This document shows positions 13,035-35,372 of a DNA stretch of 38,940 nucleotides, one piece after another. The stretch's first letter is position 1; each line of letters opens with the position of its first letter. A program made the translations under genes and the position numbers. Source of the DNA: a virus; IMG/VR virus record IMGVR_UViG_3300032731_001386, positions 1-38,940 of that record; one strand, given 5' to 3'. The notes below the pieces were generated by a model that was not told where the DNA came from, made no database searches, and saw only the letters and a list, made by a program, of their open reading frames with translations.

Positions 13035-13415
13035 ATGAAACCCCCCAAACGTTACCAGGAAATTTTTGTAGAGAGGGAATTCCTGACGGCCCGTACCGAA
13101 GTGATTTACCAGGTGACCAAAGTCAACTCGGACACCTATCGGGTCATCCTAGAGCATCCGGTATTTGGGAAGACTCTAGAGATATTCGAGCTGGATAAGG
13201 ATGGAGATCTGTGCCTCAAGTCCGTATTCCCCACAGAAATGCAGGACAGCATTGAAGAGATCCAGTCGGTAAAATCATACTACAACGACTACTTGCTCGA
13301 TGGGTCTGAGTCATACCTGGAGTATCACAACCCCGAGGTCGGATACTTTTTGTTGAGCCGGAACATTGGCGTGTACCCAACCAGCACCTATCAGGTTGAC
13401 GATGAAGACGAATAA
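13035..13415 (+). CDS. Hypothetical protein, 126 aa
   Basis: ATG 13035 starts MKPPKRYQEIFVEREFL. The product is acidic, with an alternating beta pattern (VIYQVTKVNSDTYRVILEHP) and a very acidic tail (YQVDDEDE). No domain is recognised. It is divergent from the zinc-finger gene and overlaps the start of the topoisomerase gene by 14 nt, so both are probably transcribed together. Confidence 0.65.
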   Translation: MKPPKRYQEIFVEREFLTARTEVIYQVTKVNSDTYRVILEHPVFGKTLEIFELDKDGDLCLKSVFPTEMQDSIEEIQSVKSYYNDYLLDGSESYLEYHNPEVGYFLLSRNIGVYPTSTYQVDDEDE

Positions 13416-15426
13416 TACCCAACTCGTATCGATTGAGGCCGAGCTATCAGCCGACTTCCTCGCATACAGTACGGCCATTTATAACCGTGCGCTACCGGAC
13501 ATCGTAGACGGCCTCAAGGTGGCCCAGAGACGAGTCCTTTTGTCCTTGCACGATCTACGACTCTGGCCAGACTCCCCCTACTGCAAGGTGACTAGGGTAG
13601 AAGGGCACACCTTGGGGACGTATCACCCCCAGGGAGGATGTTCCGGCACAATAATTAACCTGGGGCAGGAGAGTTCGCTGCGTTATACGTTGACGGCGAT
13701 ACACGGAAATGCGGGCGGATCGATCCAGACCGGCAATTTCATCGGACAAATGGTCTCGGATGACTCACCGGCCGCACCCCGCTACTTAGAGGTCAAAGCT
13801 ACTAATTTCTGTCAGCGAGTATATCTTTCCGAGATCCGGAAGGGGTTGGGGGAATGGCGCGATAACTACGACGGAAGTCGGTCGGAGCCCACCCGTATCA
13901 TACCAGCCCTACCCTCCCTCCTGCTCACTGGCGCAGTAGGCATAGCCTCCGGATACGCGTGCTCGCATGTCCCCTGGAACCTAAGAGACGTGGTGAATGC
14001 CACCATCGCCCTGATCCGCACACCGGGTATGACCGATGCAGCTTTGGTGGCGAAGTTCACCAATCCCCCCGAGCCTCCAGCCGGAGGTCGCGTGGTTTGT
14101 GATGGGGGGGTCCGGTCCGCGCTATTGACAGGGCGTGGCCAAATAACGGTTTATGGGGAGTGGGAGATTGATGATTCGTTGGCTTGGGGCAAGAGGTCTA
14201 CCCGCCCCGCCCTAATCGTTACCAGGCTGGCTTCAGGCTCAAGCGAGAAATTCCTGGAGCGGGTGAGAGATTTTGCCGATGCGGAGAAGTTGCCCGGCCT
14301 ACTGGATGCCGCTGACCACTCGAGTCGAGATGGTGTCCGGATTGTGTTGGTTACCAAGACCGTAGAAGACCGGGACCGATTGCTGGGAGTTCTGGTCCAT
14401 AATGGTACGGGACTCAAACATACCCTCAGTGTTAATGCCACTGCGGTGGGGTGTGATGGGAAACCTCGCACCGTGGGGGTGCGCGAGTCGATACGGACGT
14501 GGTACGAGGCGAGGGTGGGGTATTTGACCGAGTCGAATCGGTCTGAGCTGAATCGCCTCAGCATTGATTCGGACCGTATGGTTGCGATTCTGTCAGTCCT
14601 GAACGATCTAGACAATTTCATCAGTACAGTACGTGGTGCGAAGGATAAATCGGATGCTGTTGAGAAAGTCTCCGGGGTGTGGAAGATTTCTGCTGATCTG
14701 GCCAAGTACGTCATCAACATCCCCATCTCGACCCTGATCAATACGGAACGGGAGGATATCCAGGACCGCCACGATAAACTATCAGCCGAGATCGATAACC
14801 TCACGACTCTGTGCACCCCGGGCCCCGCCCTCGACACCTACATCTGCTCCGAGCTCGCATCCCTCAGGGGCCTGTGCGGCCCGGCAAGGTCGGTCTGGAT
14901 GGGGGGTGACGTACCTGCCCATCAACAGTCCGTAAAGCCCCCCACGGAGCGGGAAAAGATGGCTGAGGAGGCCAAAGCTTTGGGTATTAGTGCCCGCGTA
15001 CTGGACCAGTGGATAAGGGATAACACCGGGACGGGGAAGTTATTCGACAAGTGGCAGGAGTACAAGTTGGAGTACGATCATCGGATCCAGATGACCACTC
15101 GGGACGGGAAAAAACAACGACGGATCGAGCTGGACAAGATCCGGGCTGATATGGAGGGTCGTGGCCTCCCCCGGCGTGGTCAATACGCCTGGAACGCATT
15201 TCTTTCCCAGTATGGGAGTTGCCGGATGGATACTATTCGTGATAAGGTGGTGGAATGGCTATCGAAGCTACCGCCACCCCATAATGCCCACACCAATCCG
15301 GATCAGCCTAAGTCCGCGACACCTCGAACTCGCAGAAGCCGAGGCTCAGAGGAGGCAGGGGGGAAACGAGATGGCAGGGTTGAGGGGGAGAAACCGAGCC
15401 CCGGAGAGGGGTGGCCGGGCCCTTGA
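13402..15426 (+). CDS. Type IIA DNA topoisomerase, A subunit (GyrA/ParC-like)
   Basis: Type IIA topoisomerase A subunits carry the catalytic Tyr that cuts DNA. Seen here from ATG 13402 (674 aa): RALPDIVDGLKVAQRRVLL (near residue 30), GTYHPQGGCSGTIINLGQ and LTAIHGNAGGS (~70-110), the active-site Tyr in AAPRYLEVKAT (~125-135), and LLLTGAVGIASGYACSHVPW (~170-190). There is no C-terminal beta-propeller; instead a lysine/arginine-rich end follows. No B (ATPase) subunit lies in the window, so it would need one elsewhere or from the host. The last 143 nt overlap the next gene in another frame. Confidence 0.9.
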   Translation: MKTNNTQLVSIEAELSADFLAYSTAIYNRALPDIVDGLKVAQRRVLLSLHDLRLWPDSPYCKVTRVEGHTLGTYHPQGGCSGTIINLGQESSLRYTLTAIHGNAGGSIQTGNFIGQMVSDDSPAAPRYLEVKATNFCQRVYLSEIRKGLGEWRDNYDGSRSEPTRIIPALPSLLLTGAVGIASGYACSHVPWNLRDVVNATIALIRTPGMTDAALVAKFTNPPEPPAGGRVVCDGGVRSALLTGRGQITVYGEWEIDDSLAWGKRSTRPALIVTRLASGSSEKFLERVRDFADAEKLPGLLDAADHSSRDGVRIVLVTKTVEDRDRLLGVLVHNGTGLKHTLSVNATAVGCDGKPRTVGVRESIRTWYEARVGYLTESNRSELNRLSIDSDRMVAILSVLNDLDNFISTVRGAKDKSDAVEKVSGVWKISADLAKYVINIPISTLINTEREDIQDRHDKLSAEIDNLTTLCTPGPALDTYICSELASLRGLCGPARSVWMGGDVPAHQQSVKPPTEREKMAEEAKALGISARVLDQWIRDNTGTGKLFDKWQEYKLEYDHRIQMTTRDGKKQRRIELDKIRADMEGRGLPRRGQYAWNAFLSQYGSCRMDTIRDKVVEWLSKLPPPHNAHTNPDQPKSATPRTRRSRGSEEAGGKRDGRVEGEKPSPGEGWPGP

Positions 15427-16279: not shown

Positions 16280-16666
16280 ATGTCACACCCCTGGAACGAT
16301 CTAGAACAGCGTTTTCTCGAATTTACAACCACCGTCAAAGAGCTTGCTAAAGCGATTAGTGTGGTAGTTGAGGACAGCAGGGTTCCTGCTGAAATTTCTG
16401 ACACAGTGTCCAACCTGGCTATCGGACTCACATCGTATACCACAACGTGCGAGGATGAGATAGCGACGGCGATGGAAGGGAAGATATGTCACGACTACAG
16501 GATCGAAGCATTGCAGCAAGTCACGGGGGTGATGGTGATTGGCGACGATTACTCGATACAGTTGCCAATGCACGCCACTCAGCTACTGGGGTGGCAACCC
16601 GGAGACCAACTCAAATGGAAAATAACGGATGATAACACTGCAATCATCTGGAAACTGGCTGAGTAA
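16280..16666 (+). CDS. AbrB/SpoVT-like protein, 128 aa
   Basis: ATG 16280 (MSHPWNDLEQ) opens a helical N-terminal half. The C-terminal ~45 residues (DDYSIQLPMHATQLLGWQPG, then DQLKWKI) follow the swapped-hairpin AbrB/MazE pattern of a strand, LP, L-G-W-x-x-G-D-x-L and a strand. Such domains bind DNA, often as antitoxins or regulators. The helical half may dimerise. It overlaps the bilin reductase start by 38 nt. Confidence 0.55.
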   Translation: MSHPWNDLEQRFLEFTTTVKELAKAISVVVEDSRVPAEISDTVSNLAIGLTSYTTTCEDEIATAMEGKICHDYRIEALQQVTGVMVIGDDYSIQLPMHATQLLGWQPGDQLKWKITDDNTAIIWKLAE

Positions 16667-17252
16667 CGTCCTCGAACCAGATTGGGAGGTGAAAACTGAC
16701 ATCGCAGGGGTGGCTTTACTCCGATCGCGACACTTTTCCGACCCCGCTCGGGGCATATTTTACTGCCGAGAGTGCGTTTTGGACGTCCCAGGCAAGTTTT
16801 TTGCCGAAACCTCCCTCGTGTATCCCCAATCCCGGGGTGTTTTTCCCATTTTCGGCTCGGAATACATCCAAATGGCGCGAGGGTCGTTCGGAGCAGTAGA
16901 TTTTCACCCAACACAGACCGAGAACAACACAATTCCGGACGATTTTGGGTCCTACCCCAACCGAACAGTATCTAAATCCCCCCACTACGACCTCGACCGG
17001 CACTTTTCGCCCGTCCTGTGGCACAAAAAGTCGCCGGATGACTTCTATGACGAGTTTGCGGACGTTGCCGGAGAGCGTTTAACCCACTACTTGAGGGTTT
17101 TACCACCCCCTACCGCCCCCGACTCCGCCTCCTTCGCCCCCTTCGACGCGTACATGGCCCTTAACGACCCTGCCCGTGGTATACTTAAGGCGTATTTTGG
17201 GATCGAGTTCTCAGATGACTACATCCGACGGTTCCTCTTTCCGCACTGTTGA
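16629..17252 (+). CDS. Ferredoxin-dependent bilin reductase (PebS/PcyX/PcyA family)
   Basis: These enzymes reduce biliverdin to phycobilins using ferredoxin. Support: AETSLVYPQSRGVFPIFGSEY (~59-79) and GAVDFHP with the conserved Asp91; RHFSP (~124-128); and the C-terminal block PFDAYMALNDPARGILKAYF (171-190), which aligns closely with [20 protein letters not shown] of phage PebS as I remember it. The matching catalytic aspartates would be Asp91 and Asp173. At 207 aa it is shorter than PebS, mostly at the N-terminus. The start overlaps the AbrB-like gene. Which bilin it makes cannot be told from sequence alone. No heme oxygenase is visible here. Confidence 0.85.
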   Translation: MITLQSSGNWLSNVLEPDWEVKTDIAGVALLRSRHFSDPARGIFYCRECVLDVPGKFFAETSLVYPQSRGVFPIFGSEYIQMARGSFGAVDFHPTQTENNTIPDDFGSYPNRTVSKSPHYDLDRHFSPVLWHKKSPDDFYDEFADVAGERLTHYLRVLPPPTAPDSASFAPFDAYMALNDPARGILKAYFGIEFSDDYIRRFLFPHC

Positions 17253-20431: not shown

Positions 20432-20572
20432 ATGGTAGCCACGATCTCCCGTTCCCTGCTCAACCGTATTGCTCGAGTACTGATTCGGGCCATGCACAGC
20501 CCCAAGGCGGCGTTTCAAACCTATTTGGATGAAAACCCATGGAGCCTAGAAGCGAGAATATACGACACTTAA
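20432..20572 (+). CDS. Hypothetical protein, 46 aa
   Basis: ATG 20432 to TAA 20572 encodes MVATISRSLLNRIARVLIRA, then MHSPKAAFQTYLDENPWSLE. An amphipathic basic helix is followed by a short globular part. Its 3' end overlaps the phosphatase start by 34 nt. The other frame here (20347-20532) is rich in Gln/His/Pro and less likely. Confidence 0.45.
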   Translation: MVATISRSLLNRIARVLIRAMHSPKAAFQTYLDENPWSLEARIYDT

Positions 20573-21228
20573 CGGACACTGACTCACGCCCATATGCGTT
20601 TGTGGGAGACCTTCACAACCGGAGTAGCCTACTAGACTTGATACTCAGTCGTGACCCGACCCACAAGTACTACTATGTGTTTTTGGGGGACATTCTCCAC
20701 AGAAAAATCTTCTTCAAAAACAGTAAACGTACCTCTCCGATCCGAATTCTCGAGTCTGTGGCGACCCTGATCGATCAGGGCCGAGCGACCCTGGTCCTTG
20801 GAAATAACGAAAATTACGTCCTTAAGTCGTTAATTATGCCGAGCCAGAGCATCAAGAAGAAGGAGCTGAAATACACCCTGGAGTGTCTACGCGAACTCCC
20901 CCTCACCGAGAGGCTGCGCTACATATCAATGTTGTCTAACGCCCCCACTCATCTCGAGCTGGAGGGCCGGTACCGCCTCGCTCACGCCTACTACCCCCAC
21001 CCTGGACAAAACATCCCCCGGGATACGATTCTGTTCGGGCCGGGCTACGCGTGGTTCCGCGACTCCGACCTAGAGACCCGCCACATGATCGACCCCCAAT
21101 ACATGTACTTTTTTGGTCACTACGGGTTGCCATATCGCCGCGAGAACGTAAACATCCTCGATGCGACAAATCTTGAGGCGACTGGCGTGTACTACACCGA
21201 TCGGGACGAATCCGTGGTATACTATTAG
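20539..21228 (+). CDS. Calcineurin-like metallophosphatase, 229 aa
   Basis: The metal-site motifs occur in order: AFVGDLHNRSSLLDLIL (GDxH, ~24-40), VFLGDILHRK (GDxx, ~52-61), LVLGNNENYVL (GN-x-E, ~94-104), RLAHAYY (~143-149) and FFGHYGLPY (GH, ~189-197). The general acid His of GNHE is Asn here, and DRG after GD is changed, so activity or substrate may differ from lambda-type protein phosphatases. It may act on proteins, nucleotides or RNA ends. ATG 20539 overlaps the small gene before it. Confidence 0.75.
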   Translation: MEPRSENIRHLTDTDSRPYAFVGDLHNRSSLLDLILSRDPTHKYYYVFLGDILHRKIFFKNSKRTSPIRILESVATLIDQGRATLVLGNNENYVLKSLIMPSQSIKKKELKYTLECLRELPLTERLRYISMLSNAPTHLELEGRYRLAHAYYPHPGQNIPRDTILFGPGYAWFRDSDLETRHMIDPQYMYFFGHYGLPYRRENVNILDATNLEATGVYYTDRDESVVYY

Positions 21229-21247: not shown

Positions 21248-24004
21248 GTGTCCCACCTAAGCCCCCTTGGGTACTCCGTCCTCTCTCCCTCGATGACCCG
21301 GGCGGCCTTTGGCGCTGAGGCTGTAAACCAATACTCCCCCGATTTATCTTTAGTCCCCGCGATCATGGAGGAGATGGAAAAGTTTGGGGTCAAGTTTCCG
21401 ATTAAAAATCCGGATGCGTTTACAAAGATGCCCGAGTTTTATATACCACCGTTGGTAGGAAACAACATCTCCCAGCATTTTGATAACATAGGCAAAGAGA
21501 TTTTATCCGATAGGGTTAAGTTATTAAAGAATTTTGCTGACTGCGATGTGCCACACCCTCCTCTCTCATCGGAGCTGGTGTACGCCAAAGGCTGGACGAG
21601 ATACCGCTGGAACAGGATTGACGAGTACGAGACGGAGTGGGAGTGGGAGGTGGAGCCGGCCCCGGACGGATTGGCTGGAATCGATATCGCCATCTTTGAC
21701 TGCGAGACATTCGTCAAGGGTACGGCGTTCGGGCATCCGATCCTCGCGACAGTCGTATCCCCCGACTCGTATTGGGTGTGGATGCACGATAGTTTTGTTG
21801 ATGAGACGATACCCTACACGCCCACCCTGGTGCCTCTGGGGACGGTTAATTCCCTCCTGATCGCCCACAACGTGGGGTTTGACCGTCAACGCACCCAGGA
21901 AGCCTATTACCTGAAGCATGACCCATTTCACCCTACCGAGCCCTTCGGCAACTTGTGGTTTGACACCATGTCCGCTCACATCAATGTGTCCGGATTGGCA
22001 TCGGAACAACGGTTCATGTTTACCCAAAACGACTCTTCGTTTACGGGCATTACCCAGCCTGTCTGGGCTGACAAGGGGTCGATGAACAATCTGGTCGATG
22101 CGTATAACTTCCACTGCCAGCCGATGATACCGCTGGAGAAGGAAACCAAGAAGACCCGTAATCTGTTTGTGGTGGCCGAGTCGATGGGGGATTTTGTCCC
22201 GGATCGTGATGAGCTGGTGACATACGCCCTGCAGGACGCTAAAGTCACCTACGACCTATATGCCGTACTGGTCCTGAAGTATCTTCAGGCTAACCCGTCT
22301 CTTACGACCCTATACGGGCATTTCGCCCAAACCGGATCGGTATTGCCGGTCACATCGGACTGGAATTACTGGGTAGCTAACTGCGAGAAGGTGTGGGAGG
22401 AGTCGATCTCTAGACAGGATGAGTTGTTGGGAGAGATGGCCGAACAGCTATTACTGGACTGGCGCAATGATGATATCGATGTTGTTTCGGATCCGTGGTT
22501 GTCCCAACTCGATTGGGAGGCCAATTACGCCTTGAAGAAGGACGGTAAGCCCAAGTCGGTGTGGTATGGGATTCCGATATGGTACAGGAAAAACGCCAAG
22601 AACAGCAAGGAGTTGGGGCGTATTGTACTCGAGCCCATCAGCACAAAAAGCCGGGTCAGCCACATCCTACTACGGTTGAAGTGGAAAGGGCAACCGCTGG
22701 TGTATAACAATCTACGTGGCTGGACTTATTGGGATGACGAGAAGTCACAATGCGAACGGGTGCCACACACCGATGGGGACGGAATAAATGTCGGTGGGGT
22801 CCTGAGCAAAGACTATCTGGATGATTTTGAATCTGGCACCCTATCGAGCGACTTGCCCCAAGCCCAAGAATTGATCCGTCTCGCGATCAAAGTTTCTTAC
22901 TGGACATCGGTCCGTAGTCGCGTCAGGGACCAATTGCCGATACGGGCGATCGACTCCACGGAGATGACGATCGTCATCCCGCAGACCGTCCCCCACAACA
23001 CGGCCACTAATCGGGCTGGAGAACGCCTCTGGCTGACTGTCCCCGACCCCAAGCCGGACAAGATCGGGACGGAGGTGAAGACTCGAGTGCAGGTCGAGTC
23101 CCCGTGGACATTTGTATCCTCCGACTATGACGGTCAGGAGTCTGTGGTGGCCTCGATCTTTGCGGATTGCCAGTACAGGATGGCCGGCAGCACTCAGTTT
23201 GGGCATAGCGTGCTGGCGGGTTCGAAGGAGGACGGAACCGACATGCACAGTGTGACCGCTAGCACTATTGGTATATCCCGGACAATTGCCAAGAACTGCA
23301 ATTACGGGATGTTGTACGGATCCGGAGCCAAGACATTGGCGGCCACTATCTGTAAGGGGAACAAGTCGATATTGTTAGCTGACGCTTTGTCGATGGGCAA
23401 GAAGCTTATAGCATCGAAGAAGGGTAAAAAAGCTTCGGCAATGTCTCCCAACTTAATCGGCGGTAGCGACTCACTCGCTTATAACGAGATGTCCCGGATA
23501 GCCAATACACCCGTACCCCTCAACCCCCTCAGCGGGACTCGGATGTCGACAGCTTTCCGTCCCAAAGTTGTAGGTAGCGACTTTTTTACAATGCGGAATA
23601 ATTGGGTAATTCAGTCCACCGGAAGCGCCATGCTGCACGCATTCCTTACGGCCATGGAGCACCTAACTAGGCGTTATGATGTCCGAGCCCGATTCTGTAT
23701 GTCCGTACACGACAGCGTACTGTTTATGTGCCGCGAGGAAGACGCCGACCTCGTTAGTGCGTTGTACCAGATCGCTCACTTGTGGTCGTGGGCCTGGCTC
23801 CGGTACAATTACGGGATTTGCGAGATGCCTCACGCCAATGCGTGGTTCAGCAGTATCGAAGTAGACAAGATCTTTCGGAAATCGGCTACGGCCAGTACGG
23901 TGACGGTATCCCAACCCCACCACGAGCAGGACGGACGCGCCCACACTATAACAACCCTGATCCCCGTGCTAAACTCACTCCGTACCCTCGAACAGATCAC
24001 ATGA
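21248..24004 (+). CDS. Family A DNA polymerase, mitochondrial POLG-like
   Basis: The phage replicase. From GTG 21248 (918 aa; ATG 21293 is an alternative), the 3'-5' exonuclease sites are DCETF (D151/E153), IAHNVGFDR (D212) and YALQD (Y326/D330). Polymerase motif A is SSDYDGQESVVAS (D626), motif B GISRTIAKNCNYGMLYGSGA (~675-694), and motif C CMSVHDSVLFMCREED (H821/D822). These, plus WVIQSTGSAMLHAFLTAME and the end WFSSIEVDKIFRK, follow human POLG remarkably closely (VHD-x-V...REED; GISREHAKxxNYGRxYG). Motif C is HDS rather than HDE. It is coupled to the next gene by ATGA. Confidence 0.92.
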   Translation: MSHLSPLGYSVLSPSMTRAAFGAEAVNQYSPDLSLVPAIMEEMEKFGVKFPIKNPDAFTKMPEFYIPPLVGNNISQHFDNIGKEILSDRVKLLKNFADCDVPHPPLSSELVYAKGWTRYRWNRIDEYETEWEWEVEPAPDGLAGIDIAIFDCETFVKGTAFGHPILATVVSPDSYWVWMHDSFVDETIPYTPTLVPLGTVNSLLIAHNVGFDRQRTQEAYYLKHDPFHPTEPFGNLWFDTMSAHINVSGLASEQRFMFTQNDSSFTGITQPVWADKGSMNNLVDAYNFHCQPMIPLEKETKKTRNLFVVAESMGDFVPDRDELVTYALQDAKVTYDLYAVLVLKYLQANPSLTTLYGHFAQTGSVLPVTSDWNYWVANCEKVWEESISRQDELLGEMAEQLLLDWRNDDIDVVSDPWLSQLDWEANYALKKDGKPKSVWYGIPIWYRKNAKNSKELGRIVLEPISTKSRVSHILLRLKWKGQPLVYNNLRGWTYWDDEKSQCERVPHTDGDGINVGGVLSKDYLDDFESGTLSSDLPQAQELIRLAIKVSYWTSVRSRVRDQLPIRAIDSTEMTIVIPQTVPHNTATNRAGERLWLTVPDPKPDKIGTEVKTRVQVESPWTFVSSDYDGQESVVASIFADCQYRMAGSTQFGHSVLAGSKEDGTDMHSVTASTIGISRTIAKNCNYGMLYGSGAKTLAATICKGNKSILLADALSMGKKLIASKKGKKASAMSPNLIGGSDSLAYNEMSRIANTPVPLNPLSGTRMSTAFRPKVVGSDFFTMRNNWVIQSTGSAMLHAFLTAMEHLTRRYDVRARFCMSVHDSVLFMCREEDADLVSALYQIAHLWSWAWLRYNYGICEMPHANAWFSSIEVDKIFRKSATASTVTVSQPHHEQDGRAHTITTLIPVLNSLRTLEQIT

Positions 24005-25391: not shown

Positions 25392-26333
25392 TTAGGTCAC
25401 CGACCGCTCATTATATACCAGATTTGGTCTAATAGACAATGCCTGATACGAACTTGTCTCCGGCTCGGTGTTGGGCACTGTGCCCACCGAATTTCTCCAC
25501 AATCCCGCATCGATGTTTAGTTTAAACCAGTCGGGATACTCCTTCCCCGAATCAATACCTGCCCGGCTACATTTCCACACATCGGTCAGGGTTCCGGTCA
25601 CCACCTTGCTGTTGTCGATTGTCCCGTTGGCCCGAATCGCAGTGATCGGGGTAAACGCATACGTCGCGTTGCCGTCACCGGTGCACGTGACCGTCAGATT
25701 GTCCCCGATCAACCTCCCACACCGCACATCTTCGACAACGTACCGCTGGACGGTGTTGGGCCCGATGGCACGGCGCCACACAGCCAAACCAGTCTGTCGG
25801 CTCTCCGTGCCCGGTGTCACCAGGCACTTCCGGACCGGTAGGAAATCCCCCACCTGCACGGGGTCGAATGCCGCGCACGGTTGGCTGTAGAATCGGCCAT
25901 CCGCGACCAGAACATCGATCGTGTAGGTTTGCTCATAGACGAACTGGCTAGCGTCCTTCGTGACTTGTACAAACCGTTCCGGACCCAGCTCGAAGCCGGT
26001 TTGAAACTCCAGGCCCGGCACCTCTGGGACCCAACCCGTCACCGCGTCGGCCAACAGATCGAGGATGGGCAAACAGAACGAATGCCCCTCCCGCTGAACC
26101 TGTTTCTGTACCAGTGTGAGTGTGTAGTTCAGCGAACGGTTTCGGACCGTCGGGATATACGCCCCCCGGTTCGGGTTGTTGGTACTGGCTGAGGTAAACG
26201 AAACAACGATCATTGCTTGCTCGGCTACGCGTCCCGACTGGTCGAGTTCCTCCGCAAGCCGAAGCACTACCGCACTCTGGCCCAGGGTCTCATGCACCCT
26301 CTTATGGAGTTGGTTTTCTATCTCGAGCAGCAT
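25392..26333 (-). CDS. Gp37/DUF1834-like tail protein, 313 aa
   Basis: The first ~120 residues (MLLEIENQLHKRVHETLG; VVVSFTSASTNN-like strand; LDLLADAVTGWVPEVPG) match the pattern of Gp37/DUF1834-like tail completion proteins: an N-terminal helix, a central strand, and L-x-G-W near residue 110. The C-terminal half is beta-rich (LTVTCTGDGNATYAFTPITA). It starts 36 nt after a GTTGAAAGC motif. It probably joins the tail tube to the neck. Confidence 0.55.
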   Translation of the reverse strand: MLLEIENQLHKRVHETLGQSAVVLRLAEELDQSGRVAEQAMIVVSFTSASTNNPNRGAYIPTVRNRSLNYTLTLVQKQVQREGHSFCLPILDLLADAVTGWVPEVPGLEFQTGFELGPERFVQVTKDASQFVYEQTYTIDVLVADGRFYSQPCAAFDPVQVGDFLPVRKCLVTPGTESRQTGLAVWRRAIGPNTVQRYVVEDVRCGRLIGDNLTVTCTGDGNATYAFTPITAIRANGTIDNSKVVTGTLTDVWKCSRAGIDSGKEYPDWFKLNIDAGLWRNSVGTVPNTEPETSSYQALSIRPNLVYNERSVT

Positions 26334-26369
26334 AGCGGTTTTGAGTTAGGATGTATACACCCCCACTCT

Positions 26370-26378
26370 GCTTTCAAC
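26370..26378 (-). promoter_or_regulatory. GTTGAAAGC motif upstream of 25392-26333
   Basis: Exact copy on the minus strand, 36 nt before the start. It is back to back with a plus-strand copy at 26394-26402, as in a divergent promoter. Confidence 0.6.
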
Positions 26379-26393
26379 AGACCCTCTCACAGT

Positions 26394-26402
26394 GTTGAAA
26401 GA
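26394..26402 (+). promoter_or_regulatory. GTTGAAAGA motif upstream of 26436
   Basis: Last base A instead of C. 33 nt before the ATG at 26436. Confidence 0.45.
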
Positions 26403-26435
26403 AAGAGTGGGGAGTACTAACAACCGCGAGCTCAA

Positions 26436-26663
26436 ATGAAAGACAATGACTTGACCGGACCCGCCGTGGTATGGCAAAACACCCTAGACGATACGTATCG
26501 GTGTTACGTGCTCGCACAGTCCGACACCTACGGCTATCTGCGCATGGAGCGGATTGATACGGGCGATCGGATCCTTGACCTGGAGGTCCCGATCTCTCGG
26601 TATTTCCGAAACCGAGACGTGCTATACTGGGGAGATACGTGTATGGGGATGATCGATGGGTAA
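26436..26663 (+). CDS. Hypothetical protein, 75 aa
   Basis: ATG 26436 (MKDNDLTGPAVVWQNTLDDT). An all-beta pattern is likely (YRCYVLAQSDTYGYLRMERI). It has its own motif leader and runs opposite to the virion block. Its end overlaps the next gene. Confidence 0.5.
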   Translation: MKDNDLTGPAVVWQNTLDDTYRCYVLAQSDTYGYLRMERIDTGDRILDLEVPISRYFRNRDVLYWGDTCMGMIDG

Positions 26664-26832
26664 GGGAATCGAACACCACGAAAAGCGCCTACTGGAACGG
26701 ATGGTTCAAGCCGAAACCGTAACAGATCGCACCACTGCGCAACGAATTATCCGAAAGGCCAACAAACATCAACGTAAGATGTCCCGTCTCCGCCAACTCA
26801 TCCAGAAGGCGTTTGGGGGAAAAAGTTTATAA
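26656..26832 (+). CDS. Small basic protein, 58 aa
   Basis: ATG 26656 to TAA 26832 encodes MGKGIEHHEKRLLERMVQAE, then a Lys/Arg-rich helix (IIRKANKHQRKMSRLRQLIQ). The strongly basic helical character suggests nucleic-acid binding. It overlaps the upstream gene by 8 nt. No domain recognised. Confidence 0.5.
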   Translation: MGKGIEHHEKRLLERMVQAETVTDRTTAQRIIRKANKHQRKMSRLRQLIQKAFGGKSL

Positions 26833-26852
26833 TGGGTAGAGGGATATTGTCC

Positions 26853-27212
26853 CTAGAACTCCCCGCCAGACACAAATTCCAGCAGTTCCCACAACCCCGT
26901 TGTGTAGTTGTATGCCAGAATGTCTCCGGGCTGGGGGGAACGCTGAAAGTTTACATCGGCGAGATCGCGCAACTTTCTCGTAGCCTCGAGATTGATGATG
27001 TACTGCCGGAGTTCGCTAGCCGTTTGTTTGTATTCCGTGCTGTCCGGAAACACACCAAAATTAGAGACCGAAAGTCCTTGCAACCCGCTGTTGTTGTATC
27101 CGCAGTCAGCGTTTCCAGAAAACGGCACAATAGTCAACAGACTGGAGCCGCCAGGCATGCCCGGGTTGAGCGGGTCGTACCCGTAAGTTTGATTCTCGTC
27201 AGAGCTCCACAT
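26853..27212 (-). CDS. Tail-fibre-like protein, 119 aa
   Basis: ATG 27212 (MWSSDENQTYGYDPLNPGMP). Near the C-terminus RDLADVNFQRSPQPGDILAY, then NYTTGLWELLEF, matches the LxDVxxxxPxxGDxLxYNxxTGxW motif common in phage tail fibres and baseplate proteins. The middle has a predicted helix (YKQTASELRQYIINLEATRK), perhaps a trimeric coiled coil. Its start lies 15 nt after the DUF1320-like gene's stop. Confidence 0.6.
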   Translation of the reverse strand: MWSSDENQTYGYDPLNPGMPGGSSLLTIVPFSGNADCGYNNSGLQGLSVSNFGVFPDSTEYKQTASELRQYIINLEATRKLRDLADVNFQRSPQPGDILAYNYTTGLWELLEFVSGGEF

Positions 27213-27226
27213 GGACGGTAGGGGGG

Positions 27227-28015
27227 TTAGAAGGTGTCGGCTTCCTGAAGGCCGCCGGAGGTGGTCAAGTCGCCATCGGTGTTCTCCACCACCAGGACGT
27301 CGCCGCCATCGGGTGTAACAGCGTCCTGGGAGTCGGCAAACGATGCGATGTCGCGGGTCGTTTCCAGGTCATCGAACAGCTTGTTGACTTCGAGGGTGCT
27401 GTTACCGATGATGGTGGGAGTTTGCCGATCCAGTGAGCCGCTTGGTTGGCGGGGAGTGACATGATCGATAACGGGTGCTGGTTTGCGCTTGTACGGGTTC
27501 CAGCGGTTATTGGTGCCCCACCGCATCTCCCAACGCGCCAGAGAGGCGTCGGTGAACGCCCGGTCACGTTGGGTGTTCGACATGGTCATCGCACACGCGC
27601 TGCTCCAGTACCGGTAAGCTTCCTGCCACTTTATGCCGGAGGACGGGCTGGCTTTAGAGGCCCATAGGTCGAGTTGTTTGAGAGCGGATTCTGCGGCGTC
27701 TACGACCTGTTGCCGGGGTCGCAAAGTATCGAGATAATATCTAGCCAACGTAGCCTGTGTACGTCTATATGACCCTGCAATCAGGAGCTTTCCCTGGGGA
27801 GGGGCTGTCTCGATGAAATTATTTATAAGTATGGCGGCGTCGTGAAGAGCAACCTGGATACGCTGATAGTTGATTGTGTTGGCGGTCGGATCCTCGAGAC
27901 GGGATAGTTCCAGCGCCTCATTGAACCCAAAAACCCCAATGAAGTAATCTACGGTGGCCGGGTTGCAGTTGTTGGCAACGCCGTAAGCGTCAGGGGGCGG
28001 AGTGTATGGGGCCAC
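27227..28015 (-). CDS. Head-tail adaptor, DUF1320/Gp36-like, 262 aa
   Basis: Residues ~25-130 follow the DUF1320 pattern: FGFNEALELSRLEDPTANTI, then a helix ALHDAAILINNFIETAPP, then ATLARYYLDTLRPRQQVVDA and ALKQLDLW. Such proteins join the head-completion ring. A longer, polar C-terminal tail is present. The start lies 26 nt after a GTTGAAAGC motif; the gene follows the capsid gene and its terminator, as usual in head modules. Confidence 0.6.
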   Translation of the reverse strand: MAPYTPPPDAYGVANNCNPATVDYFIGVFGFNEALELSRLEDPTANTINYQRIQVALHDAAILINNFIETAPPQGKLLIAGSYRRTQATLARYYLDTLRPRQQVVDAAESALKQLDLWASKASPSSGIKWQEAYRYWSSACAMTMSNTQRDRAFTDASLARWEMRWGTNNRWNPYKRKPAPVIDHVTPRQPSGSLDRQTPTIIGNSTLEVNKLFDDLETTRDIASFADSQDAVTPDGGDVLVVENTDGDLTTSGGLQEADTF

Positions 28016-28041
28016 GGCTGGGTGATTACTACTTCTATGGA

Positions 28042-28050
28042 GCTTTCAAC
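28042..28050 (-). promoter_or_regulatory. GTTGAAAGC motif upstream of the head-tail adaptor
   Basis: Exact copy, minus strand, 26 nt before the start at 28015. Confidence 0.6.
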
Positions 28051-28082
28051 GCGGGGGTGGTGGTTGATTACCCCGTATAGAC

Positions 28083-28112
28083 AAAAAAAAAGCCCGTCAA
28101 ACGACGAGCTTT
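28083..28112 (-). terminator. Terminator after the major capsid gene
   Basis: On the minus strand AAGC-TCGTC, GTTT, GAC-GGGCTT is followed by nine T residues (28083-28091). Confidence 0.8.
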
Positions 28113-28137
28113 ATATCTACAGCCTTAATTGTTAGGC

Positions 28138-30038
28138 TTAAGCACCAACGGGATTCAGGAAGATGGCACCAGCGCCAACCCTTCCAGATTCTCCCATGCC
28201 CACGAGCTCAAATGATCTTTCGACCAAGATATCGCCCTCGAAGACTCTCCTGTCCATAGAAAAACGCTCTGGCGTTGATATCGGGTAACCTGCTAATGTG
28301 TAGGTGTACGCATAAGCTGGGGTACCGTAGTTAGCATCTAGAGCAGGAGTGAAACCGTCAGTACTACCACTGGGATGATAGAACATAACAGCCACGTTTT
28401 CGTAGATGTTTTCCAGAGCACTGGTTTCAGTGTTCAGTTTGAGACGGCGAGCGACACGAATCTCGTCGAGACCGAAGATCTCAGCAAGGCTCTTTTCGTT
28501 CACCAGAATACCGCGCTGCATGAAGTCACGGATACGCTTGTTACGCTTGAGAGCGTTAAACGCATCAGGAGACAGAACAAGTTTGTTGGGATAGCAACCT
28601 ATTTGTCCACGTACTTGCTCCTTCATGTCATCAAACAGTACTTCGATGTCAGAAGTCGGGCTGTTAAATTGATCGGCGCCAGAGTTGTAGGAAGCCAGGT
28701 CGAGAACGTTGCCGGTTTCGTATTGAGTTACGTCCAGAACTTTCTCGCTGACCTGGATTTCCCAGCTCTGCATGAGGCGGTTAGCAGCGTCCTTAGCGGC
28801 ATATGCGCGAAGGTCAATGGCGGCGGCGCCATTTTTGGCTTCTGCGGCCACTTCTTCAGCAAGCTGCCAGCTAATGGCTTCTTGGCGAAGAGCGAACGAA
28901 CGGGTTCCGAATTCATTAGAGATCTTCTGAATGTTGGTACCAGGCGCACGCAGGAACGACTGAGCGGCGAATGCCTCCTTGCCAAACACAAGGGTGCGGC
29001 CAGCCCGGACGCTCATAGAGACGGCAGGGGCGAAGAAGGTCGCAACACCTTCTGTATTCTTGTACAAATTGTTAACGTAGAAGCTCTTTATCTTCTACTT
29101 CTTGCAATTTCTTGCAAGTTCGGACTATATCTTCAACCCTAAGGTTGAGGGGCACTCGTGGGAGAAGTTATTGTTGGGACTCATTCTCCTAGTCTCTGAA
29201 CCTTCCGAAAGCACTAAAGCCCACTTTCGGCTTGGCTGCTGATTGCCATGTCTAACTTTATCCCATGGAAAATACTTCTTTCACCCTTTACCAGTCGAAT
29301 GAATTTTTTGTGTTCGCTCGGGTTTACTGAGATGCCAAATATATGGCAAAGATACTCACTTGTACGAGCAAAATCACTAAATTGATTCTGGTCAATGAAA
29401 ACCGATCTGTGTCCAAATTTAAATCTAAATTTGGATTCCATGAGGTCTATAGTTTCGTCGCTAAATCTAGCTGTTCTATTGGCAGCTATGTTATTTTTAG
29501 CAGCTTTGGAGACGTTTTGCCTCCAAGATTCGCCTCTGGATACTATGCCAGATTTTCTCTCTAGCATGGTTTTGTAAGCTTTTTTATTAGCTTTAGATCT
29601 TTTTTCAAATGTCCATGTTTTCTGGGCTAATGCACCAGACATTCTTTTGGCTTCCCCAGTTGGATCTCCTTTCATGAATAGAAAAGCAATCTTATCCGGT
29701 TTAGAGTCATAAGCTAACCATCTATAGTAGTGAGCTAAAATGTGATTTTTTCTAGAAAGTCTAATGATGTTTAATTTTTCATTAGTCCCTCCACAGTGTC
29801 TAGGGATTATGTGGTGTTTTTCCACATATTCCCCTGACTCTATCTCACCTTTTTCTATCGAGTGACAATACTCAATAAATTTCTCGTAGATGGTTTCCAT
29901 GTAGGTCAGATTTAGGTTTTCCAGCAATTCACCCCTTTATAATACCACAGATTTCTCTGAGGCACGGCTACAAAATTAACCTTGTGCGAGTTGCGTTAGA
30001 ATGGGGTCAATAATTCTGACCGAATCAAGATTCATCAT
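28138..30038 (-). CDS. Major capsid protein, split by a group I intron (exons 29979-30038 and 28138-29064)
   Basis: Exon 1 (60 nt, ATG 30038) encodes MMNLDSVRIIDPILTQLAQG. Exon 2 continues in phase with YKNTEGVATFFAPAVSMSVR and reaches the stop at 28138. The joined product is 328 aa. It shows capsid features: a DPxLTxLAxGY start, FGTRSFALRQEAISWQLAEE, CYPNKLVLSPDAFNALKRN and a late EIFGLDEIRVARRLKLN, as in HK97-fold capsids. A GGAG ribosome site lies just upstream, in the end of the decoration gene. Unspliced, exon 1 would stop at TAA right after the splice site. Confidence 0.9.
29065..29978 (-). mobile_element. Group I intron (914 nt) in the capsid gene
   Basis: The 5' exon ends in T (GGT) and the intron ends in G, as in group I introns. 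A P1 helix can form between GCAC..GGT and GCCGTGC with the U-G pair at the splice site. Core elements are present in order on the minus strand: P AATTGCTGGAAA (29915-29929), Q GGCAATCAGCAGCCAAGCC (29229-29247), R GTTCAGAGACTA (29190-29201) and S GAAGATATAGTCC (29122-29134). GCTG/CAGC (P/Q) and GACTA/TAGTC (R/S) pair. The HNH gene is inside. Confidence 0.93.
29214..29900 (-). CDS. HNH homing endonuclease in the capsid intron, 228 aa
   Basis: ATG 29900 (METIYEKFIEYCHSIEKGEI) opens the gene. The HNH site is EKHHIIPRHCGGTNEKLNII, then RLSRKNHILAHYYRWLAY, with the H-H, N and H residues of the family. A DNA-binding tail of mixed basic helices follows. The AT-rich base composition differs from its surroundings, fitting a mobile gene. 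Its last codons (AISSQAESGL) double as the intron Q element. The enzyme probably cleaves intronless capsid genes and so spreads the intron. Confidence 0.9.
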   Translation of the reverse strand: METIYEKFIEYCHSIEKGEIESGEYVEKHHIIPRHCGGTNEKLNIIRLSRKNHILAHYYRWLAYDSKPDKIAFLFMKGDPTGEAKRMSGALAQKTWTFEKRSKANKKAYKTMLERKSGIVSRGESWRQNVSKAAKNNIAANRTARFSDETIDLMESKFRFKFGHRSVFIDQNQFSDFARTSEYLCHIFGISVNPSEHKKFIRLVKGERSIFHGIKLDMAISSQAESGL

Positions 30039-30044
30039 AGTAAG

Positions 30045-30761
30045 TTACGCTCCGGCTTCGTTGCCAAGTTTCACCCGAACAAACTGACCAGCACCAGCGG
30101 TACCGATCACATCGAGTGCACGACCCAGGATCACAGCAGCACCAGCAGTGCTAGAAGCAGCACCGGCGGTAGTGGAATACACAGCGTCGTCAACAGCAAA
30201 GGTCGAAGTGGCGTCCACTTCTACGATTGCGATTCCGGTGGTCACAACCGACAGCAGGGACTGGTATGGGAACACACCAGGCTTGCGGGGGGTCGTGGAG
30301 GGATTGGACTGCCCCTCATAAGTGCCGGGCCAGATATACGCAGTAGCGCCAGAGATGGCGGTAGCGGGAGCAGGCAGCACGGTGGCGGCGGTGTCGCTGG
30401 TACGGGTCATGACCCGGAAAAGCTGCGCACCAATCTTGATGGTGTCACCGACATCGAGTTGGGGATCGAAGTTGGTACCGGAACCGGTCACAACGCCAGT
30501 GGTGGCGATGGACAGGGTGCCAGTCAGGGCGGTGAGGGCATCATCCTCAACGCTGTAGCCTTTATCGGTGAGTTCGCCTTGGCCGTAAAGCTTGTAGACG
30601 TTCACACCAGCCGCATAAGTACCGGCGGCGGCGGGATATGCACCGCTTCGTTTTACAAAGCGGCAGCGTTCAATACCATTAGCGAGAGCGGTCGCGTCAG
30701 TGACGGTCGCGGTCTCCACATATTTATGGTCGAACGACATGTAACGGGGATCAGTTGCCAT
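30045..30761 (-). CDS. Capsid decoration-like protein, 238 aa
   Basis: ATG 30761 (MATDPRYMSFDHKYVETATV), directly upstream of the capsid gene, as head decoration proteins often are. Small, Ala/Gly/Thr-rich and beta-rich. Residues ~79-144 (GTLSIATTGVVTGSGTNF ... TDTAAT-like) share a domain with the tail sheath (see findings). The tail end is aliphatic (GAAVILGRALDVIGTAGAGQ). The stop overlaps the capsid ribosome site. Confidence 0.65.
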   Translation of the reverse strand: MATDPRYMSFDHKYVETATVTDATALANGIERCRFVKRSGAYPAAAGTYAAGVNVYKLYGQGELTDKGYSVEDDALTALTGTLSIATTGVVTGSGTNFDPQLDVGDTIKIGAQLFRVMTRTSDTAATVLPAPATAISGATAYIWPGTYEGQSNPSTTPRKPGVFPYQSLLSVVTTGIAIVEVDATSTFAVDDAVYSTTAGAASSTAGAAVILGRALDVIGTAGAGQFVRVKLGNEAGA

Positions 30762-30860
30762 AGGACAAGATTCGTTGTTTCGTTGTTCGTGGGAGCGTAT
30801 GGTGACGTATCAGCCATACACCAGTATGTTGGGTTTAACCCCACCCTCGCGTAACCGGAA

Positions 30861-30923
30861 CGAACAACATTTGAGGATAACTCAAGGTTATCTGTTTGTT
30901 CGCCGGGGAACTTGCGTCCCCCG
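30861..30923 (-). promoter_or_regulatory. Nested hairpins between protease/scaffold and decoration genes
   Basis: CGAACAA/TTGTTCG (30861-30902) encloses GATAAC/GTTATC (30876-30892). CGGGG/CCCCG follows (30904-30923). They may end, process or stabilise transcripts at the module border. No clear U-tract. Confidence 0.45.
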
Positions 30924-30941
30924 TTGTTACAAGGCAGGTAG

Positions 30942-32528
30942 TTAAATATTCTCGCTCATTACAAATTTAACGGCCGACATGTAGTCGACACCCTTTTCTT
31001 CTGAGTAAGACATGGCGCGAGCATGGACTTCGGCGTTCCGCTCGTCATACACGTAACCGTCAGCGCTAGGTACCCGGGTCTTGGCCTTTTTAGGGGCAGA
31101 CGCCGGTGTGGCTACCTCGCTAAAGCTCACCATCGCGGGAAGGTTATTCAGCACGCCTTTCATAAAGTCGAACTGGCTAGCCTTACCACCCTCGCTGAAA
31201 TTCACGCTGTTCTTGGCGTTCAGGGTCTCCATGAACCGAACCAGATCGGTGATGGGGGCGACCTGCTCGGTCAGTTTCCCACCGTCATAGAGCTTTTCGC
31301 AGAAATCCGTAATGTCCTTCTGGCGCATGAGGCGACGCTGGCTGGCCAGCTCCTCCTCGAGTTCAGCGACCTTAGCTGCCAAGGGATCGGAAGAGGGTTC
31401 GGCGAAGGATGTGGTCGACTCAGTGTCGGCCTCACTTTCGCTATAGCCCATCATCCCCTGCTCACCCATCTCGCTAGAGCCTTGCGCGAGTTGGTACAGG
31501 GCCATGATCAACTGTTCTTCGGTGTACTGGGAGGCGAGATCGGCCGCAACCTTCTCGTCATCTTCTCCGGACATATCGTCGACATCAGCGTCGGCACCGC
31601 CCATGTCCTCGTCCTCGCCCTTCATTCCATCGGGTCCGGCACCAGACTCGTCGACAGGAGCGCCATCTCCACCATCCTCATCGCCCATCTCCTCCCCATC
31701 GGGACCTTCAACCATCGACATGGCGTCAGGCTCACTATCCATCATAGGATCGGGAGGGGTCGCCATATCCTGGCCGGGATCCATCATGCCCATACCATCG
31801 CCGTATTCGGCATCGTAGGGGGCTGGAGATCCTGTCTCTTCGATGAGTTGACCTTCCTCATCAGTAGACTTTACGCCGTTAATGTTGACATTAATGGTCA
31901 TGCCCCGCCCGTCAGCATGGTCAATAACTTTCGATTCGGCGGGGGCTTCGGTTTTTCTTTTAGCCATAGTAGGTTCAGTTTCCTGGAATGAAATAGAAGA
32001 CTCCCTTGGAGTTATTGTGATCGAGCCTTCGGGGTGGGTTTCGGAAAAAGCCGTGAGGCCTTTTACCGCGGGGATCGACACCAGTCCGAGATGGCGCAAT
32101 GCCAACTGTCCCGGTGTCGGATTGGTGTCAGCGTCAGGCAAGTAAAACGAGCTACTTACCTTCTTAAACACACCGTCGCGTATCAAGCGCTCGGCCTTAG
32201 GGGTCAGTTCGACCTTCCCCCAAAGCGATTTGCCTTTCCGCCAGACTTCGCGCACCCAGCCTAAGGCGGGGGTTCCGTCATCCTGATCGTGACCGATAAT
32301 CAACGGGGCCTCATGCCGATTCGAGTCGTAGCTAGACACCACTTGATCGAGATCGGTATCCGCAAATACCATCTTCTGTCCGGTCGAGCTGACTTGGGGT
32401 CCAGCCCGGAACAGCTCGATATACACAGTGCGCTTGGCTTGTTGCTTCGTCAGTGGGCCGTCACCATTAAGGACGACCTCATCTGATGAGAGGGGTCCCA
32501 TATCGGTTTTGCGAAGTCTTCTTGCCAT
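30942..32528 (-). CDS. Capsid protease fused to scaffold (Mu gpI-like), 528 aa
   Basis: Residues ~30-160 follow the Mu gpI prohead protease pattern: VYIELFRAGPQVSS, then PLIIGHDQDDGTPALGWVRE, SLWGKVELTPKAERLIRDGV, FKKVSSSFYLP, LALRHLGLVSIPAVKGL. The His (GHD) and the Ser-rich strand are likely catalytic. The next ~250 residues are very acidic and Met/Gly-rich (MGDEDGGDGAPVDES), then a coiled coil (AKVAELEEELASQRRLM), typical of a scaffold. ATG 32528 has GAGG close upstream. A TTG at 32537 is possible. Confidence 0.8.
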   Translation of the reverse strand: MARRLRKTDMGPLSSDEVVLNGDGPLTKQQAKRTVYIELFRAGPQVSSTGQKMVFADTDLDQVVSSYDSNRHEAPLIIGHDQDDGTPALGWVREVWRKGKSLWGKVELTPKAERLIRDGVFKKVSSSFYLPDADTNPTPGQLALRHLGLVSIPAVKGLTAFSETHPEGSITITPRESSISFQETEPTMAKRKTEAPAESKVIDHADGRGMTINVNINGVKSTDEEGQLIEETGSPAPYDAEYGDGMGMMDPGQDMATPPDPMMDSEPDAMSMVEGPDGEEMGDEDGGDGAPVDESGAGPDGMKGEDEDMGGADADVDDMSGEDDEKVAADLASQYTEEQLIMALYQLAQGSSEMGEQGMMGYSESEADTESTTSFAEPSSDPLAAKVAELEEELASQRRLMRQKDITDFCEKLYDGGKLTEQVAPITDLVRFMETLNAKNSVNFSEGGKASQFDFMKGVLNNLPAMVSFSEVATPASAPKKAKTRVPSADGYVYDERNAEVHARAMSYSEEKGVDYMSAVKFVMSENI

Positions 32529-32543
32529 AAGCCTCAATATGCT

Positions 32544-35372
32544 TTACACAGAGTTGAGGTTGGTCGCATCAAGGAAGGCGGTAAACCGCTCCTCGTTGCG
32601 GGAGAAACTATCACTCAGCAGGGAGACTTGACCGACGGGGGTGCGAACGATCGTGATTGCGAGACGTTCGAGGGTGGGGCTAGTAGCCACGTAGGCATCC
32701 ATACGGACGGTGCCTTGCTCGAGGAGTGTGGGGGAGTTATTGGCTACTCCGCACACCACGAGATACGCTTGTTCTGGGCGGTTGCCGAACAACGCCCCCT
32801 GACGATAGAACTGGTTCAGGACCTGGGTAGCAATGGATTTAACCCTGCTATACACAGTGTTGGCAGAGTCAATCGACTCGAACAGGATGTCGTCGAAGCT
32901 CCGGTTCATCACATCAATGAGGACGTTGAGGATGACTCGGGTGTTCACGAATCGGAACAGGGGGGAGCTGGACAAGGTCCGTGAACCCCACACCACAACA
33001 CCACGATTCGGTAGAGACCGGATGGGGTTGAGGCCCAGGGCGTACGTCACTTCCTGTTGCTGGGCAGTAATATTGAACTTGAGGCCGACAACACCCCGTA
33101 ACGGATAGCGAGATCCGGCGGGGGGTTGCTGGAAGCCTTCGTTCACAAAGCGGCTACATGCGATGCCGGCCACAAACGAGCTGGGGGGCACGAACCGGTC
33201 GGAGAGGTTTTTGACGTAGGGGGCGAAGTATGCGGCGTGACCGTAGGGGACTCCGACAATCCGCTTGATCAGGTTCAGTTCGTCTTGTGCCTGGGCCACA
33301 TTCTCGATATCGCCACCGCAGTCGATAATGGCCATGTGCTGGGTGCCAGATACACCTTCAGTAACCCCAAACCGACCTTCGGCCGCAGCCACCAGGGTCT
33401 GAGTGATCTTGAGCCGTTCAGTGGCGGCTTCGGACCGGGACGCCAGATCGGAATCCGCGCTGTAGGACAGAATGCTGTACGCTTCCGGAGCTGCAAGGAA
33501 CCCTGGCGCGTAGTACTCACCACTCATCCCCTTCTCAATCGCGTACACAAAATCTTGTGCTTTGGAGGCCGAAGTCAACTTGTAGCTTTCGTACCCGACC
33601 TGCTCAACAGCCGAGGTCAGTTTGACAACATTGTCGTCGATGAGACCTTGACGGTTGGTGCCAGGCAGCACCGGGCTCACAAGGCCGTTTTTCGCAGTGA
33701 CCCGGACCCGAAGGACATAGTCGAAGGACTGGAAACCGTTCGGGATGGATTTATCCAGTCTCGCGGTAGCTCCGGCAGCGATTGCGACGGTCGGGGAAGG
33801 CGAAACAGTGGCGGCGGTGTCGGTGGTGCGGGCGGTCACGGTGTACCGGACCCCGTTCACAACAATCACACTGTTGACGCCGATCTCGGAATTAAACAGG
33901 GTGCCGGTGCCGGTCACAACACCGGTGTCTGCGATAGCAACGGTGCCGGTCAGAGCGATGTCGTTGATGTCGGGGCGGATGAAGGGGGTACCTGCAGCCG
34001 ACACCAGATTCGAGACCACGTAGCCGTTATTCGGGGCGTAGTTAGTACCGCTGTAGTTCGAGCCGGTGGGGACGGCTTCGATGATGTAGTACTGCGCGAG
34101 GTCTTTTTCAACCAGGATCGCAGTGATTTCGTCGCGAAGTCCCTCCGCCAATTCGTCCGGCGTGGCGCCATTGACGATGATGGCGCGGTTCTCACCCGCC
34201 ACCGACACATAAAACACCTGCACGCTGTCGGGCAAGAACCCGGTACGGACGGCAACACCGCCCGTTACAGTAACGGTGCCGGTAGGAACGGTAGGAGTAG
34301 CTCCACCAATTTTGGCGAAGGTGGTAGTCCCCAGATCGTAACGCCAGTACGCGGAGTCGGCATCAGCCCACTTGTCACCAGCGCCCACACCCGAGCTAAA
34401 GTCCCGGCTGACGGCGACAATCTTGTCATCGGCAATGACGGTTACGCCATTGGCGGCCAGATAATCCTCCAGGATCTCGGATTGATCGGTAGTGGGATCG
34501 TAGGTGCCGGCGCTAGCCGCATTGGCGGCTGCGATAAACAAACTAACGGCCGATCCATCCACATACAGGACGTTCTCGCCAGTAGCGATCTCGCGGCTAT
34601 TACACCGAAAATTGATTTCCTTCACCGAGGTGAACAACCGGACCACACCTGCCGTATTAATATTCAGAGGAGACGCATATCCGGTGTCGCTAAAGTTGTA
34701 TGCGACAAACCGGTCGACGTCCGGCAGGACGCTGTTGTCCCGAGCGAACACGCGGAACTTGCCCTGCGTGGCCTCGGTGGCGGTCTGTTCTAACTTGTAA
34801 AAATTAGAGAACCCGTCAGAAGTCGAACTAGACAGGAAGCTAAAAAGATCTAGGGCGTTATCGGTGGCGTCGATGGCAGTGGTGGTAATCACCCTGATCT
34901 CATCGCCATCGGGATCGAGCACATTGATCGGAGTACCGAAGTACCGGCCGTTAACCTTCAGCGCGAAAGCGTTATAGCCGGAGCCGGCTCCGCTACCACT
35001 CAGGTCGATTACGGTCTCGGGGGTCGGGGTAACCCGGGTAAAGTACAGGATACCATTGACACCCACGTTATCGAAAAACCCCTTAACGGCGTCGTAGGTG
35101 GTTAGGGCACCCAACGAACCAGTAGGTGTGCTGTTACCTACCCGTTGCAGGTAGTCTTCTGGCGAAGCTACTTGGGTAGGGGTGTACGGCAAGAAGCTAG
35201 AATAAATACCTTCGCTCCCGCTGCCATAGTACTCATCAGCAGGAGTAGTCCCAAAAATGTATCCCACGGCATGACTTGCCAGGGGTTGAGGAAGACCTCC
35301 AGTGGCCGATTGAGTAACAAATACTCCCGGCCTATTCAGGAGGCCAGCGTTTAAAGTGATCGATGATGCCAA
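32544..35372 (-). CDS. Tail sheath protein, 942 aa
   Basis: The start MASSITLNAGLLNRPGVFVT resembles the sheath N-terminus (RPGVFV), and the C-terminal ~250 residues are conserved sheath sequence: GVVVWGSRTLSSSPLFRFVN, TRVILNVLIDVMNRSFDD, then YLVVCGVANNSPTLLEQGTV, RMDAYVATSPTLERLAITI. It forms the contractile tail sheath. At 942 aa it is long; insertions occur in the middle, including the domain at about residues 470-540 shared with the decoration protein. Its GTTGAAAGC motif lies 39 nt upstream. Confidence 0.92.
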   Translation of the reverse strand: MASSITLNAGLLNRPGVFVTQSATGGLPQPLASHAVGYIFGTTPADEYYGSGSEGIYSSFLPYTPTQVASPEDYLQRVGNSTPTGSLGALTTYDAVKGFFDNVGVNGILYFTRVTPTPETVIDLSGSGAGSGYNAFALKVNGRYFGTPINVLDPDGDEIRVITTTAIDATDNALDLFSFLSSSTSDGFSNFYKLEQTATEATQGKFRVFARDNSVLPDVDRFVAYNFSDTGYASPLNINTAGVVRLFTSVKEINFRCNSREIATGENVLYVDGSAVSLFIAAANAASAGTYDPTTDQSEILEDYLAANGVTVIADDKIVAVSRDFSSGVGAGDKWADADSAYWRYDLGTTTFAKIGGATPTVPTGTVTVTGGVAVRTGFLPDSVQVFYVSVAGENRAIIVNGATPDELAEGLRDEITAILVEKDLAQYYIIEAVPTGSNYSGTNYAPNNGYVVSNLVSAAGTPFIRPDINDIALTGTVAIADTGVVTGTGTLFNSEIGVNSVIVVNGVRYTVTARTTDTAATVSPSPTVAIAAGATARLDKSIPNGFQSFDYVLRVRVTAKNGLVSPVLPGTNRQGLIDDNVVKLTSAVEQVGYESYKLTSASKAQDFVYAIEKGMSGEYYAPGFLAAPEAYSILSYSADSDLASRSEAATERLKITQTLVAAAEGRFGVTEGVSGTQHMAIIDCGGDIENVAQAQDELNLIKRIVGVPYGHAAYFAPYVKNLSDRFVPPSSFVAGIACSRFVNEGFQQPPAGSRYPLRGVVGLKFNITAQQQEVTYALGLNPIRSLPNRGVVVWGSRTLSSSPLFRFVNTRVILNVLIDVMNRSFDDILFESIDSANTVYSRVKSIATQVLNQFYRQGALFGNRPEQAYLVVCGVANNSPTLLEQGTVRMDAYVATSPTLERLAITIVRTPVGQVSLLSDSFSRNEERFTAFLDATNLNSV

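Follow-up and report, generated by a model that had tools for sequence, protein, structure and literature searches.

A POLG-type family-A DNA polymerase with an HDS motif C in an uncultured S-TIM5-like cyanomyovirus

What kind of DNA polymerase is encoded at positions 21248–24004 of this viral sequence, and does it bear on where the mitochondrial DNA polymerase gamma (POLG) came from? The origin of POLG is a long-standing question; outside eukaryotes, the sole close relatives found are the POLGs of phages. The stretch of DNA analyzed here (hereafter, the window) is a 38.9-kb fragment (38,940 nt) of an IMG/VR record. We are highly confident that the gene encodes a POLG-type family-A enzyme with which an uncultured S-TIM5-like cyanomyovirus replicates its DNA, and that, of the phages sampled, the Mic1-like phages are nearest to eukaryotic POLG.

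The open reading frame (21248–24004, + strand) is uninterrupted and encodes a protein of 918 residues from a GTG codon, at a position where most homologues have ATG. Pfam profiles identified a DNApol_Exo domain, the mitochondrial polymerase 3'-5' exonuclease (PF18136, residues 63–343, 21434–22276, + strand, E 1.7e-44), followed by a DNA_pol_A domain (E 1.5e-11), with both matches exceeding the curated cut-offs, and the top PHROG was the DNA polymerase family (2e-292). In a search of all PDB chains, the first 14 matches were yeast Mip1 (7.6e-104) and mammalian POLG (~1e-85 to 1e-90), with an E. coli-type Pol I reached only at match 15 (E 0.028).

The predicted structure gave the same picture. 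An AlphaFold2 model based on 27 aligned phage sequences had a mean pLDDT of 86.7 and a pTM of 0.85, and in a Foldseek search of the PDB ranks 1 to 36 were all human, mouse or yeast POLG. The model matched human POLG (8d33_A) over the full-length fold with a TM score of 0.83 (E 7.6e-56), and the next structures, phage G20c Pol I and T7 polymerase, scored 0.37–0.40. POLG and Mip1 share the whole-length fold (TM 0.80–0.83), the domain order, all the exonuclease and most of the polymerase motif residues with the window enzyme at 29–31% identity. T7 gp5 and bacterial Pol I have family-A palm motifs in common with it, but T7 gp5 has a TM score of about 0.40 and 12% identity, and bacterial Pol I is barely detectable by sequence (E 0.03). 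The initial annotation had read this gene as POLG-like rather than as a Pol I or T7 type. The profile, PDB and structure comparisons bore this out, as did the trees described below, and an assignment as T7-like or Pol I-like is ruled out by the PDB matches, the TM scores and the rooted tree. The window polymerase is POLG-type.

Motif residues were assigned by alignment, with human POLG numbering checked against PDB sequences. The exonuclease residues are present as D151/E153 (exo I), D212 (exo II) and D330 (exo III). Motif A, DYDGQE (23123–23140, + strand), contains D626, equivalent to the catalytic D890 of human POLG, and E631, equivalent to the steric gate E895. In motif B, RTIAKNCNYGMLY (23279–23317, + strand), R678, K682, Y686 and Y690 correspond to human R943, K947, Y951 and Y955; the Y686 position is Tyr in the window and POLG and Phe in the A-HIS and S-CBWM1-like enzymes. 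The helix NNWVIQSTGSAMLH (residues 784–797, 23597–23638, + strand) and the C-terminal block FSSIEVDKIFRK (residues 867–878, 23846–23881, + strand), the latter common to POLG, were present as the initial annotation had named them, as were motifs A, B and C. Motif C reads HDS (23708–23716, + strand), with H821-D822-S823 aligned to human H1134-D1135-E1136. Its third residue is the single exception in the window; all other exonuclease and polymerase catalytic positions are retained.

Exo III and motif A are separated by 296 residues in the window enzyme (D330–D626) and by 491 in human POLG (D399–D890, D399 being the exo III residue), which binds its accessory subunit there. The phage enzyme is thus missing a large portion of the stretch devoted to the accessory subunit in animal POLG. 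It would act as a single chain, as yeast Mip1 does.

The surroundings of the gene identify the window as a fragment from an uncultured S-TIM5-like (Aurunvirus-related) cyanomyovirus. A metallophosphoesterase gene lies directly upstream of the polymerase gene (20539–21228, + strand; Pfam Metallophos 1.2e-7), and its product is 43% identical to that of the S-TIM5 gene immediately 5' of the S-TIM5 polymerase. Downstream on the − strand is an S-TIM5-like virion module (25392–35372) of gp156, gp155, gp154 head-tail adaptor, major head protein (28138–29067), HNH endonuclease (29214–29927), gp152, protease (30942–32537) and tail sheath (32544–35372). The order metallophosphoesterase and polymerase, then on the − strand gp156, gp155, gp154, major head protein, gp152, protease and tail sheath, is that of S-TIM5, whose capsid, tail sheath and polymerase clade the window likewise shares. 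The nearest named phages, S-TIM5, S-TIM54, S-TIM61 and S-TIM66 (Aurunvirus), are 56–57% identical in the polymerase and 78–79% in the capsid; they resemble the window in clade, HDS motif and gene order but represent a different genus-level lineage, the subclade of the window consisting so far of metagenomic contigs only. Genes for topoisomerase II subunit A (13366–15426) and a ferredoxin-dependent bilin reductase (16629–17252, + strand; Pfam 1.5e-11) would fit a cyanophage, and based on its relatives and the bilin reductase gene the host was presumably a cyanobacterium.

Phage POLGs as such are not new, having been in print from 2011 to 2020. As described in citing papers, POLG homologues were reported in cyanophages A-HIS1/2 (Chan 2011) and S-TIM5 (Sabehi 2012); further reports concerned S-CBWM1 (Xu 2018) and Mic1 (2020). 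In this literature a phage origin or a common ancestor was proposed for POLG (PMC7156551; PMC4928673), and the tree in the Mic1 paper was unrooted and neighbor-joining (PMC7156551). The suggestion in the initial annotation that the gene informs the origin of POLG had therefore been anticipated, as phage POLGs published from 2011 were already linked to that origin. Three points were not found in the literature compared, although the original 2011 and 2012 papers lie outside that comparison and may contain them: the clade-wide HDS motif described below, the grouping of Mic1-like and opisthokont POLG under a mixture model, and additional Mic1-like metagenomic relatives (L225–L229). An IMG/VR search with A-HIS2 as the query yielded no further relatives.

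An unrooted tree of 38 full-length proteins resolved five groups, each with 100% ultrafast bootstrap: eukaryotic POLG, Mic1-like, A-HIS, S-CBWM1-like and S-TIM5-like. The window was placed in the S-TIM5-like clade (100/100), and the split of eukaryotes plus Mic1-like from the rest received 100/100. The nearest other phage clade in this tree is that of Synechococcus phage S-CBWM1, whose POLG-type enzyme is 34% identical to that of the window but has HDE in motif C and Phe for Tyr in motif B. The enzyme of Microcystis phage Mic1 is also POLG-type, with the same motif B Tyr as the window (PMC7156551), but it has HDE and an intron in motif A and groups with eukaryotic POLG. A palm-domain tree was rooted with T7 and nine other phage PolA, without bacterial Pol I; the cyanophage 9515-10a polymerase was dropped as an outgroup, its locus being fragmented. 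In this tree the POLG family, eukaryotic and phage and including the window, formed a single clade apart from T7-like and other phage PolA (100/100), and eukaryotes plus Mic1-like received 93/79. The eukaryotic sample in the trees comprised three sequences, all opisthokont; they were assembled from PDB alignments to the window query, so that human and mouse POLG are represented without their variable regions.

These trees separate the two parts of the suggestion that the gene bears on POLG origin. Common ancestry stood, with the family recovered as a clade. The possibility that the phage lineage of the window was itself the direct source of mitochondrial POLG is scarcely credible, despite that ancestry and the motif B Tyr common to the window and POLG. 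A clade of eukaryotes and S-TIM5-like phages was rejected in the rooted palm tree (AU p = 0.0016), as was one of eukaryotes and A-HIS (p = 0.018), and eukaryotes plus S-TIM5-like was rejected again (p = 0.002) in a reduced tree from which A-HIS and the longest outgroup branches had been removed. A sister relation of the window lineage to eukaryotic POLG is thus ruled out by AU tests in two rooted trees. In addition, POLG does not have HDS, and over aligned segments identity to human POLG was 31.3% for the window and 42.6–42.9% for the Mic1-like enzymes, the latter equal to the identity between yeast Mip1 and human POLG on the same segments. Because of this lower identity and the rejected sister relation, the window lineage says little about the immediate ancestry of POLG. 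The window polymerase is one more member of a known phage branch, and it helps to show that this branch is not the closest kin of POLG.

Whether a relative of the Mic1-like cyanophages gave rise to eukaryotic POLG, which would then be nested within phage diversity, we judge to be evenly poised. The grouping of eukaryotes with Mic1-like phages and the identity of the Mic1-like enzymes to human POLG argue for it, but rooted support is not decisive: in the reduced tree the result was the same but weaker (84/57), and a clade of all phage POLGs with eukaryotic POLG outside it was not rejected in the palm tree (p = 0.21) or the reduced tree (p = 0.26). The opisthokont sample of three also counts against a firm conclusion. 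The same two tests leave room for POLG having passed from early opisthokonts to phages, or for both having obtained it from an unsampled third source, with phage POLGs sister or derived. This we consider possible but rather doubtful. The diversity of phage POLGs far exceeds that of the sampled opisthokonts, a transfer from a eukaryote to a cyanophage has no obvious route, and among 84,980 prokaryote species genomes POLG was confined to two contigs of one metagenome-assembled genome (MAG), in which the gene was S-CBWM1-like.

Those two loci (L155, CALGUV010000039.1, and L156, CALGUV010000157.1) come from a MAG labelled Microbacteriaceae and are two halves of one POLG, about 70–75% identical to those of L105 and L112. 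Phage POLGs are confined to cyanophages in the literature, and the MAG loci possibly belong to a phage that infects a heterotroph, or to a cyanophage that was binned wrongly.

The Ser in motif C proved to be real and not private to the window phage. Among scorable phage loci, some of which were overlapping pieces of one contig, 69 (58 distinct proteins) had HDS and 45 others (41 distinct) had HDE. All HDS proteins fell within the S-TIM5-like clade, where the motif was fixed in the 69 scored loci, and HDE occurred in every S-CBWM1-like, A-HIS and Mic1-like enzyme examined, as it does in POLG and Mip1. Because of its occurrence in so many loci and distinct proteins, a sequencing error or decay behind HDS is ruled out. 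The motif C Glu, absent from the window enzyme, was not used to define the POLG type because an entire phage clade is without it. One substitution on the stem of the S-TIM5-like clade, requiring a minimum of two base changes, explains the distribution of HDE and HDS.

A change at a catalytic position might be taken as the sign of a degenerate or non-catalytic polymerase, and the conservation of the motif C Glu in the alignment elsewhere favors that reading. We consider it very improbable. The isolated phage S-TIM5 has HDS and no other recognized DNA polymerase, and the remaining active-site and exonuclease residues are retained in the aligned clade members. Furthermore, T7 RNA polymerase is active, and by alignment it has HDS at positions 811–813, which suggests by analogy that the third carboxylate of motif C may be dispensable. 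The most economical reading of these sequences is that the HDS enzyme would be an active replicase that uses two aspartates. It is possible that activity or fidelity is altered in HDS enzymes, as the Glu is conserved in all other members examined. The change from HDE to HDS is a clade-wide natural active-site substitution in a relative of POLG, and offers a ready-made test of the role of that Glu.

The complete genomes of relatives support a replicative role. S-TIM5, S-CBWM1, Mic1 and A-HIS1 each carry one DNA_pol_A gene, the POLG, with neither a family-B nor a Pol III polymerase detected in any of the four; the sole-polymerase result comes from these complete relatives, the window being a fragment. 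We infer that the window POLG is the phage replicase and that it proofreads through its 3'-5' exonuclease domain. In the mechanism that we propose, the polymerase would copy the phage genome with its proofreading domain and right-hand polymerase domain by the usual two-metal mechanism, in which D626 and D822 are the predicted metal-binding aspartates and E631 is the putative sugar-selecting steric gate. The motif C Glu would have become Ser once, ahead of S-TIM5-like diversification, and POLG and the phage enzymes derive from a common ancestor, with Mic1-like phages as the nearest sampled branch to eukaryotic POLG. No single-subunit RNA polymerase or DnaB-type (Twinkle-like) helicase was detected with Pfam profiles in 14 POLG-phage records; the T7 control was positive for RNA polymerase in that search, and DnaB-type was the only helicase class covered. 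Given these absences, co-transfer of a full mitochondrial-like replisome is unsupported.

We tentatively propose, at a little short of even confidence, that opisthokont POLG came from within cyanophage diversity beside the Mic1-like branch, and that the branch of the window independently acquired Ser in motif C, as in T7-type RNA polymerase. If this is true, the mitochondrial replicase of animals and fungi was acquired from a lineage of cyanobacterial viruses. Mic1-like phages are indicated as the group to sample for the origin of POLG.

In Mic1 and several of its uncultured relatives the polymerase gene is split at one common point inside motif A (GADVDS|QELW). The inserts are about 0.3–0.9 kb and occur in L227, L228, L229 (7815–8705), L231 (7815–8101) and L068 (Mic1, about 9824–10120), with none at this site in L225 and L226. 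The insertion point looks like a self-splicing intron site.

Several other features of the window were observed. The HNH/homing endonuclease gene separates the gene for the major head protein from its neighbor, and in L003 an insert divides the match to the major head protein in two. A 555-residue open frame (33126–34793, + strand) antisense to the tail sheath gene is probably not a gene, its weak conservation tracking that of the sense gene. An AAA+ ATPase of 349 residues (4947–5996, − strand; Pfam AAA 4.9e-10) stands alone in its surroundings. The bilin reductase resembles the phycoerythrobilin synthase of Prochlorococcus phages at only about 28% identity, and is possibly a distinct type among cyanophages. 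Lastly, a 485-residue protein (11240–12697, − strand) with no Pfam or PHROG match is conserved in related contigs (68% identity in L002 and 31% in L029).
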